Source of the DNA: Oscillatoriales cyanobacterium
GTDB lineage: Bacteria; Cyanobacteriota; Cyanobacteriia; Cyanobacteriales; Microcoleaceae
Direction of reading: 5' to 3'
Length of the DNA stretch: 64,000 nucleotides
NCBI GenBank assembly: GCA_004293365.1
Contig: RDYN01000018.1
Coordinates: forward strand, 1 to 64,000
This document shows positions 39,572 to 47,880 of this stretch, in pieces. The notes beneath the pieces were generated by a model. That model did no database searches and was not told the origin of the DNA. It saw only the letters and a list, made by a program, of their open reading frames with translations. The translations under genes and the position numbers were made by a program. Positions within the stretch are counted from its first letter, which is position 1. Each line of letters starts with the position of its first letter.

Positions 39572-39796
39572 GATTTAGTAGCAGATGCTGCATTTTTTTG
39601 TAGATTCGCGATCGATCTTGTTTTAGGGCGCTGCTTATTGCCAGAATTCCTGAGTTGGAGGCAGGAAAGTCAGGCTAATCACCAAATTTGCAGAAGTCAA
39701 TAAAAAATGTTACTATGATAACCAGTTATAGGGAAACTAGCCGCCTCTCACATAATTTGTGGTATAAACGAAAAAAATCAATACAATAAGATAAAA

Positions 39797-41323
39797 ATGA
39801 ACCTATCTCAAAAATCATTTAAGTTAATATTGGCAGGGAACACAAATGTACCTGCAATGATCAATGCCATTATCGCAGCTACCCTTCGGGCTCGAATAGA
39901 TACAGAAAACCCCGATTTAACTTTTCGTCAAGTACATATCTTTCATACAGAACAATCATTGAAAGCTCTGACAGCTTCAACATCTTGGCAAAATGCTTTG
40001 AGCTACCATGAGATTTCCTCGACGAGTTTAGTACATCATGTCGCTAAAATAGAAGACTCTAATGATGAAAAATTTAGAGATCTTGTAGAGCAATTACGGA
40101 CGATCGTTAATCCGATTGACAACGCACATAGTTACATTGATTTAACAAATGGTATTTCATCTCTCAAATCTATCCTTGCGGTTTTTGCTTATGTACTTGA
40201 TATAAAAAATATTTATTCACTGGAAATCGATTTTTCTAAGGATGATCCGACCAGAAAAAAGCAAGCTGGTCTTTTTTATCATGAACTTGAGAAAGAAGGT
40301 GTCAAGATACAATATCGCAACTTTCCGCCGATACGGGAGTTTGATACTTTTGGCAAGCTAAATTACACAGAAGTTCTACGCCACCGTTCAATTATTGATG
40401 AACTCGTAAGTAGTTTGACAAATTTATTACCATCTGGGCTTGACCTTGAGCATTTGCGAGAGTCACTGCTATCTGGGGTTCATTCTCGTTTGTTGGGTGA
40501 GGTAACTGAAGAATCATATAGCCACCGCCATTCCGTTTTTGCATCCTCTGCTAGCATTGAAGAGGTTGCAAATATTATTCTTACCATTGTTAAAACAGCA
40601 GAGTTGGAAAATAAAACACTTGGTGTAAAACTAGAAGAAGTTAGAGATATTTTTGCCAAAAACCCCAAATATTTTGTTAACTTAAAAACGCTAGAGCATC
40701 TCACAAAGCTAATTACTTCGGTGCGTAATGATATAGCTCATCCCTCTCAAAAAAATGGATATTCAAAAGAAATAACAGCTATTCAATCTCGTTTATCCTC
40801 TCAGTTAGCATTTGCCTTTTTGCAATTTACGACTAAATCATTAGGTGCTTTTCTCGATCAAAATGGTCAACTCGTAAATATCCAAACTCTTGAAATAACT
40901 GTCGAAGAAGATGAGACAATTTTTTATTTTGGGTTTGATGGTGATTCTACTGGTGACTATTTGGATATGGCATTTGGGAAATCAAGCGAGGATGAAGTTA
41001 GGACACGGAGTAAGACCGTAAAAGGAGCAATTGATGCGTTGAAGAACTTGATACGCAAAGAGACGAAGGATAACAACAGTGTAATTTTTGCCGAGGGTGA
41101 CAACCTCCTCTTCAAATCGCGTTATAAAGTGAGCTTACTCAATGAATTAAAAAGAATTTACAAAGATAAGACCGGATTAACTGGAAGCATAGGATATGGC
41201 AAAACTTTGCCAGAGGTTGCATTGGCAATGCGTTTATCTAAGGCAAAAGGTGGAGACAGCATTATGGGTATAGGTTTACGAGACTCTCAAGAAGCAAGTA
41301 ACGCAGAGTTAACCGCAGACTAA
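39797..41323 (+). CDS. CARF-HEPN-mCpol (minimal CRISPR polymerase) fusion protein
   Basis: This is a 508-residue protein with three apparent modules. Residues 1-185 look like a Rossmann CARF-type sensor, with the CARF-like loop YIDLTNGISSLKSILAVFAY at about 113-132. Residues 190-350 are helical and contain R310-NDIA-H315 (SVRNDIAHPS), the Rx4H motif of HEPN ribonucleases. Residues 370-490 resemble the Cas10/GGDEF palm of mCpol. They include YFGFDGDSTGDYLD (acidic D381/D383), FAEGDNLLF with D435 in place of GGDD, and GSIGYGKTLPEVALAMRLSK. mCpol proteins make cyclic oligonucleotides in conflict systems. There is no signal peptide. No cas gene or CRISPR array is nearby. Composition is AT-rich relative to its neighbours, suggesting transfer. 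Confidence 0.7.
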   Translation: MNLSQKSFKLILAGNTNVPAMINAIIAATLRARIDTENPDLTFRQVHIFHTEQSLKALTASTSWQNALSYHEISSTSLVHHVAKIEDSNDEKFRDLVEQLRTIVNPIDNAHSYIDLTNGISSLKSILAVFAYVLDIKNIYSLEIDFSKDDPTRKKQAGLFYHELEKEGVKIQYRNFPPIREFDTFGKLNYTEVLRHRSIIDELVSSLTNLLPSGLDLEHLRESLLSGVHSRLLGEVTEESYSHRHSVFASSASIEEVANIILTIVKTAELENKTLGVKLEEVRDIFAKNPKYFVNLKTLEHLTKLITSVRNDIAHPSQKNGYSKEITAIQSRLSSQLAFAFLQFTTKSLGAFLDQNGQLVNIQTLEITVEEDETIFYFGFDGDSTGDYLDMAFGKSSEDEVRTRSKTVKGAIDALKNLIRKETKDNNSVIFAEGDNLLFKSRYKVSLLNELKRIYKDKTGLTGSIGYGKTLPEVALAMRLSKAKGGDSIMGIGLRDSQEASNAELTAD

Positions 41324-41497
41324 CTGGGTTGGTGCGGATGTGGTAGTCCTGCTTTCTTCCATGATGCAATTCCATGCAACTCTTTCTGCATAATAATTGA
41401 TCGTGCGAAAGTCCGGCGTTTCTGCACCACTACCGTAAGTAGGCTGGAGCAACAACATCCACTACCCAATTTGTTTCAACTAAAACTGCCTTGGGCT

Positions 41498-42696: not shown

Positions 42697-43248
42697 ATGA
42701 CTGCCAACAACCACAAACAACACCTTTACCCGACGCGCATTGATATGTCAGCCGGCACCCGCTCGAACATAGTCGGGCTGCTCAACGCCACGCTAGCAAC
42801 CACTCTGGACTTAAAAACTCAAGTCAAGCAAGCCCACTGGAACGTCAAAGGCATGGACTTCTATCAGTTGCACTTGCTGTTTGACGAAATGGCCGGGGAA
42901 CTCGAAGAATACGTCGATACGGTTGCCGAACGGATCACAGCTTTAGGCGGTTTAGCTGTCGGAACAGCCCGCACAGCAGCCGCAGATTCGATCCTGCCAG
43001 AATTTCCTTTCGACATCCTAGACGGCAAAGAATACGTCACTGCTTTGGCCGATCGCTACGCACCCTACGCCCAACACCTGCGAGTGGCGATCGACAAAGC
43101 ATCAGAACTCGGCGACGCTGACACCGCCGACTTGTACACCGAAATTTCGCGGGCAATTGACAAGCGTTTGTGGTTCCTAGAAGCGCATTTGCAAGCTTCT
43201 GCGGCAACTGCAACAGCCGCCGCTCGCGAACAAGTTGCCGTCAAATAG
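42697..43248 (+). CDS. dps: Dps family ferritin-like DNA-protection protein
   Basis: This 183-residue dodecameric ferritin family member stores iron and detoxifies peroxide. The ferroxidase signature is visible in KQAHWNVKGMDFYQLHLLFD followed by EMAGELEEYVDTVAERI, with the conserved His, His, Asp and Glu. The C-terminus is Ala-rich (ASAATATAAAREQ). The start is the ATG at 42697; an upstream in-frame extension of 58 residues overlaps sulfiredoxin and is rejected. It lies 92 bp downstream of srx on the same strand. Confidence 0.9.
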   Translation: MTANNHKQHLYPTRIDMSAGTRSNIVGLLNATLATTLDLKTQVKQAHWNVKGMDFYQLHLLFDEMAGELEEYVDTVAERITALGGLAVGTARTAAADSILPEFPFDILDGKEYVTALADRYAPYAQHLRVAIDKASELGDADTADLYTEISRAIDKRLWFLEAHLQASAATATAAAREQVAVK

Positions 43249-43254
43249 CCACTT

Positions 43255-43435
43255 CTGTTGTGGGGTGGGCATCTTGCCCGCCACAGGCAAGATGCCTGTA
43301 CCACTTTCTGTTGTGGGGTGGGCATCTTGCCCGCCACAGGCAAGATGCCTGTGCCACTTTCTGTTGTGGGGTGGGCATCTTGCCCGCCACAGGCAAGATG
43401 CCTGTGCCACTTCTTTTGTGGGGCGTTGCTCCTAG
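43255..43435. repeat. three tandem copies of a GGCATCTTGCC palindrome, period about 55 bp
   Basis: The unit TTGTGGGGTGGGCATCTTGC followed by CCGCCACAGGCAAGATGCCTGTG(/A)CCAC is present three times. A fourth degenerate copy begins at 43418. Each unit forms a GGCATCTTGCC/GGCAAGATGCC hairpin. It lies between dps and the HTH/GrpE-like gene. Not a CRISPR array, because the units are contiguous and self-complementary. Confidence 0.8.
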
Positions 43436-46547: not shown

Positions 46548-47880
46548 AACACCCCGTCCTTCTAGGACGGCTTTAATTGTAACTTTTCATTACACGCTTA
46601 CCTGTTTTGTGCTGACTGCGGTAGCATAAGATTGGAGGTAAGAGCAATGCTAGTTTTTGAGTTCAAAGTTTACGGAAAATCAAGTCAGTTCCAAGCGGTA
46701 GGTGAAGCAATTCGTACCAGCCAGTTTGTCCGCAATAGCTGCTTGCGCTATTGGATGGACAATCCTAAAAAGAACAAGTACGACTTGAACAAATACTGTG
46801 CTGTATTAGCAGCAACTTTTCCGTTTACAGACGAACTCAACTCTCAGGCAAGGCAGGCAAGTGCAGAACGTGCTTGGGCAGCTATCTCCCGGTTCTACGA
46901 AAACAGCAAGAAAAAGATTCCTAGCAAAAAAGGATATCCACAATTCCAGAAAGACTGTCGTTCTGTTGAATACAAATCGACTGGGTGGAAACTTGCTTCG
47001 GACAGAAAGTCGATAACTTTTACCGACAAAAAAGGAATCGGCAAACTCAAACTCAAGGGTACTCGCGATTTGCATTTTTACTCCTTCAGCCAGATTAAAC
47101 GGGTTCGACTGGTAAAACGCGCTGACGGTATCTACGTTCAATTTTGTATTGATGTTAATCGAAAGGAAAATACAGAGCCAACAGGTAAGACGATTGGATT
47201 AGATGTTGGATTGAAGGAGTATTATACCGATTCAAACGGAGTCACCGTTGAAAACCCTAGATTCCTGAAAAAAGGTGAACGTGTTCTCAAACGCAGTCAG
47301 CGTCGAGTATCTAGAAAGGTTAAAGGTTCAAAAAACAGAGGTAAAGCCCGACAGATTTTAGGTAAGCGCCATCTCAAAATAAGCAGGCAGCGTAAAGACC
47401 ATGCTGTGAAACTGGCAAGGTGCGTAGTTCAGTCAAACGACTTGATAGCCTACGAAGATTTGAGAATTAAAAACATGGTGCAGAATCATTGTCTAGCCAA
47501 GTCTATTAACGACGCATCTTGGTATCAGTTCCGCGTCTGGCTTGAATATTTTGGAAAAGTATTTGATCGCGTAACTGTTGCGGTGAATCCGCAATATACC
47601 AGTCAAGAATGCTCCCTTTGTGGTGAAGTTGTCAAAAAAACGCTATCCACCAGGACTCACGCTTGTAAATGTGGGTGTTTGATGGATAGAGATGAAAACG
47701 CCGCTAGAAATATCCTAAGTCGGGGGTTGGGTACGGTAGGGCATACCGGAACCTTTGCAGTAGAGGCAAGTAACGCTTTGGAAGAATCGACCTCTACTTT
47801 GGTTGGAGAGATCCAATTAGAGCAAGTCGGCTCGTAGATCAAAGAATCCCCACGCCTCGATAGCTGGGGAGTGTCAAGGA
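46548..47880 (+). mobile_element. IS200/IS605-type element carrying tnpB only
   Basis: A hairpin CCGTCCT-TCT-AGGACGG at 46554-46570 marks the left end, and a TCCCCA/TGGGGA hairpin at 47847-47870 followed by GTGTCAAGG marks the right end. Between them is a single tnpB gene; no Y1 transposase (tnpA) is present. The segment just 3' of tnpB is the expected location of the guide (omega) RNA. Exact ends are approximate. The element sits between two genes of a partner-switching set. Confidence 0.7.
46647..47837 (+). CDS. tnpB: TnpB-family RNA-guided nuclease (IS200/IS605 OrfB)
   Basis: This 396-residue protein has a RuvC-like nuclease split into three motifs. The first Asp is in GLDVGLKEYYTDS, the Glu in LIAYEDLRIKNM, and the final Asp in CLMDRDENAARNIL. 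A zinc ribbon CSLCGEVV...HACKCGC lies between the last two. TnpB nucleases act with an RNA made from the element's right end and favour retention of the element. All catalytic acids are present, so the protein appears intact. The ATG at 46647 has a perfect GGAGG upstream; an in-frame TTG at 46632 overlaps that site and is rejected. Confidence 0.9.
   Translation: MLVFEFKVYGKSSQFQAVGEAIRTSQFVRNSCLRYWMDNPKKNKYDLNKYCAVLAATFPFTDELNSQARQASAERAWAAISRFYENSKKKIPSKKGYPQFQKDCRSVEYKSTGWKLASDRKSITFTDKKGIGKLKLKGTRDLHFYSFSQIKRVRLVKRADGIYVQFCIDVNRKENTEPTGKTIGLDVGLKEYYTDSNGVTVENPRFLKKGERVLKRSQRRVSRKVKGSKNRGKARQILGKRHLKISRQRKDHAVKLARCVVQSNDLIAYEDLRIKNMVQNHCLAKSINDASWYQFRVWLEYFGKVFDRVTVAVNPQYTSQECSLCGEVVKKTLSTRTHACKCGCLMDRDENAARNILSRGLGTVGHTGTFAVEASNALEESTSTLVGEIQLEQVGS

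Follow-up and report, generated by a model that had tools for sequence, protein, structure and literature searches.

A cyanobacterial CARF-HEPN-mCpol fusion protein as a candidate self-contained cyclic-nucleotide-controlled RNase

One gene in an Oscillatoriales cyanobacterium appeared to join a putative nucleotide sensor, RNase, and cyclase. This raised the question of whether a single polypeptide could make a signal, read it, and act on it and, if so, whether the signal would turn the RNase on or hold it off. The gene lies in a 64,000-nucleotide stretch of contig RDYN01000018.1, the whole of which we call the window. A preliminary description, made from the sequence letters, had proposed a possible defense system. 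We found that its interpretation was right in anatomy; the function is a prediction from sequence.

Three domains in one chain

The fusion gene occupies window positions 39797..41323 (+), with an ATG at 39797 and a stop codon at 41321-41323, and the ORF translation gives 508 uninterrupted codons (508 amino acids plus stop). The CARF domain (39812..40351, +; residues about 6-185) contains the loop D115-x-T117-x-G119-x-S121-x-x-K124 within YIDLTNGISSLKS (residues 113-125). The HEPN domain follows (40352..40864, +; residues 186-356), with six helices and the motif R310-N-D-I-A-H315. The mCpol palm domain (40919..41281, +; residues 375-495) has the motif GFDGDSTGDYLD at residues 379-390, EGDN at 433-436, and the palm-region segment SIGYGKTLPEVALAMRLSKA at 464-483. 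When we counted on the translation, the CARF-like loop, RNDIAH (310-315), and the palm motifs were all at the residues given in the preliminary description.

Profiles and predicted structure agreed on CARF, HEPN, and mCpol in one chain, as that description had claimed. The Pfam mCpol profile (PF18182) matched residues 377-491 at E 1.3e-27 (96.9 bits versus a gathering cutoff of 26.4), and the NCBIfam mCpol profile matched at E 2.7e-15. The full architecture was found by the PADLOC model CARF_HEPN_mCpol (PDLC01967), which covered residues 7-494 at E 2.3e-205 and 681 bits; weaker PADLOC matches were to CARF, Csx1/Csm6, and CARF_HEPN models, the best at 1.6e-4. Given these profile matches, the motif set is confirmed to be more than chance. 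A PDB sequence search with the whole protein returned one unrelated match (E 0.36), and the palm alone returned OptS at E 0.06.

The full-chain AlphaFold2 model (mean pLDDT 77.7, pTM 0.52) resembled Csm6, CARF, and OptS structures, and its top Foldseek matches were the Csm6 enzymes 8pe3, 5fsh, and 6tug. The TM-scores against Csm6 were low (0.20 to 0.25 by query, rmsd 15 to 19, Foldseek ranks 1 to 13), and thus the domains match and their arrangement does not. All three folds were recovered in the models. The CARF region is predicted to have a Rossmann-like CARF fold along with the conserved loop motif, and the palm was identified through its match to OptS. The HEPN region, modeled separately (pLDDT 87.1), showed the helical fold together with the R-x4-6-H motif and was matched by VIA-align to solved HEPN domains; Foldseek with this region alone gave no match at E 0.001 or better.

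The preliminary description had named loss of R310/H315 or of the palm aspartates in homologues as evidence against itself. Both sets of residues were kept in nine of nine open copies in our alignment, as were the palm motifs DGD-x-TG and GD, and R310, N311, and H315 were invariant in 13 of 13 alignment rows. The aspartates D381 and D435 correspond in alignment to D6 and D57 of KpOptS, the putative active-site aspartates of OptS. S405 is nearly invariant and aligns with OptS S30, a residue that shifts product choice according to the accessible part of PMC12657218. The same part of that paper describes OptS N34 as an adenine contact. Because this position is occupied by K409 in the fusion, the cyclase product is not predictable from sequence. 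In the same-genus pair of the window and L002 copies, dN/dS was 0.25 for CARF, 0.17 for HEPN, and 0.11 for mCpol. Among open copies of the subfamily to which both belong (subfamily A, below), every computable dN/dS value lay well under 1 for each of the three domains, many other pairs being saturated.

Distribution, genomic setting, and broken copies

The three-domain fusion recurs, as the survey of homologues suggested in the preliminary description revealed. In the order, 26 of 388 genomes matched; 16 of these had the fusion or its remains (9 open loci and 7 broken), and 10 had the mCpol part only. The 14 control genomes of this survey gave no matches. Across the phylum, 5 of 386 genomes matched, 3 of them with the fusion. 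The family survey yielded no additional fusion among 61 genomes, and a contig scan, with a reach of close relatives only, found three fusion loci, all cyanobacterial. Named carriers include Microcoleus vaginatus HSN003 (G564, a complete genome) and a Prochloraceae MAG (G392), and Coleofasciculus sp. LEGE 07092 (G515) has a broken copy. We also considered carriage by phages or plasmids: there was no match in phages, in viral-contig scans reaching close relatives only, or in plasmids.

Two subfamilies could be told apart. Subfamily A has EGDN (window, L040, L002, L003, L043, and L047), and subfamily B has AGDD (L041, L048, and L044) and is 27 to 28% identical to the window protein. The fusion palms formed one group separate from eight others, with support of 91/98, which is below the tool's own mark, and in 94% of 200 bootstrap trees. 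This grouping is compatible with a single origin of the fusion palms, a reading that is tentative because the branches are long.

The fusion gene sits in a variable segment (39585..41434) whose flanks continue in sister genomes with different content between them. The left edge was set by L061, L064, and L071, and the right edge was set by L061 and L063; the right-hand match begins at 42097 in L064 and at 42279 in L071. As read from ORFs, L061 has a gene resembling pyroglutamyl peptidase and another of 228 codons between the flanks, L071 has a gene for a repeat protein, and L064 has small ORFs. An element of roughly 93 bases (41342-41434) lies directly 3' of the fusion gene, and recurs at other places in the genome as well as in some sister genomes. 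Farther downstream are short repeats readable as repeated peptides in several frames (43240-43430) and an ORF that, judged from its translation, resembles a TnpB/OrfB transposon protein (46632-47837, +).

We compared neighboring ORFs up to about 8 kb on each side of the fusion, less near contig ends. No partner gene recurred beside the fusion except within one group of related genomes, where the recurring neighbors were confined to one orthologous place (L043, L046, L049, L050, and L053). The remaining shared neighbor ORFs were isolated homologues lying at differing distances, and the strongest match was between L002 and L047 (35% over 333 amino acids, E 5e-64, 5.3 and 3.2 kb away). The fusion copy in L003 adjoins DndC and DndD-type genes.

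The broken loci differ in what was lost. In L042 and L046, a single open frame still spans CARF and HEPN, and mCpol ends early, after about residue 448 or 470. HEPN is broken and mCpol open in L051 and L052, the latter also with a CARF frameshift. L049 and L050 have a CARF frameshift, an open HEPN, and an interrupted mCpol, and in L053 HEPN is gone together with most of mCpol. If the ligand represses the RNase, HEPN must be lost before mCpol. On this premise, we observed no bias to HEPN-first loss among the seven broken copies, which gives repression no support; single frameshifts in these copies may be assembly errors, and the copies are partly nonindependent, since L049 and L050 have two lesions in common and L046, L049, and L053 seem to have a similar insert near one place. 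One-base deletions near codons 101 to 103, in CARF, occurred in L049/L050 and in the distant L052, beside A-rich runs (window about 40097-40108). This region is a recurrent break point, perhaps produced by slippage.

Source and sign of the signal

We asked whose signal the CARF domain would read. It might mainly read cyclic oligoadenylates of the host's type III CRISPR, with mCpol merely adding to or tuning that signal. Consistent with this, Cas10-palm2 and RAMP profiles each matched in 12 of 16 fusion genomes, including the window genome. However, a Cas10-palm2 match is common in the absence of the fusion as well (39 of 44 genomes, with mCpol and possibly GGDEF proteins in the count). If the palm of the G076 fusion itself is set aside, eight of the nine open-copy genomes had no Cas10-palm2 or RAMP match on the fusion contig, although some of these contigs are short, down to 6.7 kb. 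The ninth is G392, with matches of this kind about 60 kb from the fusion. Neither profile matched in G564, G608, G595, or G601, where profile misses are possible. Two of these genomes, G564 and G608, carry open fusion copies and gave no SMODS match either. Thus, the fusion persists without detectable type III CRISPR, its independence of type III CRISPR is supported, and a CARF devoted mainly to the host's CRISPR signal is improbable. The seven broken loci and the patchy presence across the phylum would be accounted for if the gene were a lone toxin-like or decaying one, without a current part in defense and with its mCpol or HEPN inactive in many strains. Yet nine loci are open with the R/H pair and palm aspartates kept, dN/dS is low among subfamily A copies, and patchy presence and turnover in variable sites are usual for defense genes. 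We therefore regard decay as unlikely.

The plain reading is a closed loop, because the chain has a likely cyclase, a sensor, and an RNase and no evident partner. Leaving the sign aside, it is likely that the protein's own mCpol makes the ligand read by its own CARF. The proposal of the preliminary description that synthesis, sensing, and killing share one chain without CRISPR guides is plausible in view of the domains, the conserved residues, and the two hosts without a type III match. The activation that it implied is another matter: the direction of control is open because that description leans to activation while measured mCpol systems repress.

With activation, a phage cue or nucleotide change would turn mCpol on, its product would bind CARF, and the HEPN RNase would be turned on, placing the logic of Cas10 and Csm6 in one chain. 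The Csm6 enzymes that head the Foldseek matches are activated by ligand, as far as the accessible sources describe them, and the broken copies L042 and L046 would be harmless in such a scheme. Against it, we saw no infection-sensing domain or recurrent partner gene, and the constitutive activity of measured mCpols would keep the RNase permanently on. Activation is a strong rival, somewhat less probable than repression.

With repression, the fusion would be a self-contained cyclic-nucleotide-controlled RNase acting as an abortive-infection enzyme. CARF, HEPN, and palm domains of known relatives function as dimers, and this chain would dimerize. The mCpol pair would continuously make a small cyclic nucleotide, the composite CARF pocket in that dimer would bind it, and the ligand-bound state would keep the HEPN RNase inactive. 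Sequestration or degradation of cyclic nucleotides by a phage would then strip CARF of its ligand, HEPN would cut RNA, and the infected cell would stop. This explanation is supported by the domain content, the conserved catalytic residues, the low dN/dS in three domains, the hosts without detectable type III genes, and the lack of a recurrent partner; the predicted structure has no extra domain able to switch mCpol on. We rank repression above activation on account of the constitutive activity of measured mCpols and the lack of a visible mCpol switch. By analogy with those systems, a closed loop with repression seems only just short of probable. The cyclase product, the CARF ligand, the RNase activity, and the phage trigger are all inferred, and the sign most of all.

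Repression is challenged chiefly by L042 and L046, which keep CARF-HEPN open with mCpol cut short. A repressed toxin should not survive truncation of its mCpol, unless it is silent or the stump still works. Two further observations count against the model: K409 stands in place of OptS N34, and SMODS matched in 1 of 16 fusion genomes (G070), versus a co-occurrence of 53% reported for mCpol systems in the accessible part of PMC12657218. The same count disfavors a role as a CBASS guard, although this is weak evidence because SMODS does not cover every CD-NTase. To our knowledge, ligand activates and does not repress in the CARF effectors studied so far, and we know of no CARF protein repressed by its ligand. 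A cyclic dinucleotide is also an unusual ligand for CARF. If repression holds, inhibitory nucleotide signaling reaches CARF sensors and RNases.

Comparison with known systems

The CARF-HEPN-mCpol architecture is already catalogued. Residues 7-494 of 508 match positions 1-470 of 471 of PDLC01967, whose name lists the same domains in the same order, and we saw no architectural difference between model and window protein. The model presumably derives from the 2020 CARF classification. Because this named model covers the fusion and an mCpol-HEPN fusion is mentioned in PMC12657218, the architecture is not new. The accessible part of that paper describes coupling or fusion of mCpol genes to HEPN RNases as less frequent, and there the Panoptes authors leave undecided whether regulation of mCpol-HEPN effectors is negative or positive. 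In a limited literature search, mCpol, CARF, and HEPN appeared together only in PMC12657218, within its accessible part, and no published functional study of a CARF-HEPN-mCpol protein was found among the matches listed. The words mCpol and Panoptes are absent from the 2025 CRISPR classification (PMC12669027).

Csm6/Csx1, the type III CRISPR ribonucleases, share the order of CARF then HEPN in one chain with the window protein. The window protein differs in having its own mCpol and in occurring also where type III genes are not detectable, and it does not appear to be an ancillary protein encoded with or dependent on Cas10. The mCpol plus CARF-2TM systems of the same order likewise pair mCpol with a CARF sensor, as two genes in L054 and as one chain in L055 and L056. 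However, they match PADLOC CARF_m9 CARF_TM models instead of HEPN, their domain order differs, and their mCpols fall outside the fusion group (support 91/98, below the tool's own mark). In L055 (4978-6438, -) and L056 (5092-6372, -), mCpol is N-terminal in the same chain as CARF-2TM, which constitutes another type of single-chain mCpol system. In a genome of the window's genus, L057 (2946-6444, +) has a 2TM effector and mCpol of the Panoptes type immediately adjoining a CBASS cyclase and an ORF that we read as patatin-like.

According to the accessible part of PMC12657230, Panoptes has a constitutively active mCpol whose product represses the 2TM-beta effector. Panoptes is a two-gene operon of a stand-alone mCpol (OptS) and a 2TM-beta effector (OptE), whereas the window protein is one chain with mCpol C-terminal to CARF-HEPN. 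Its sensor is CARF rather than a beta-barrel, and its effector is a predicted HEPN RNase rather than a membrane protein. The scarcity of SMODS, at 1 match among the 16 fusion genomes, is a further difference. By analogy, the fusion may still be a Panoptes in one chain, its RNase kept asleep by the cyclic nucleotide of its own C-terminal domain, with a CARF where ligand represses, firing when a phage destroys nucleotide signals; we consider this somewhat short of probable. If true, a self-inhibiting guard would also exist in hosts where there is no detectable type III CRISPR or SMODS-type CBASS for it to guard. Because cyclase, sensor, and toxin share one polypeptide, point mutations in this one gene can reveal the sign of the signal. 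The worth of the fusion thus lies in a one-gene test of the question left open by the Panoptes authors.
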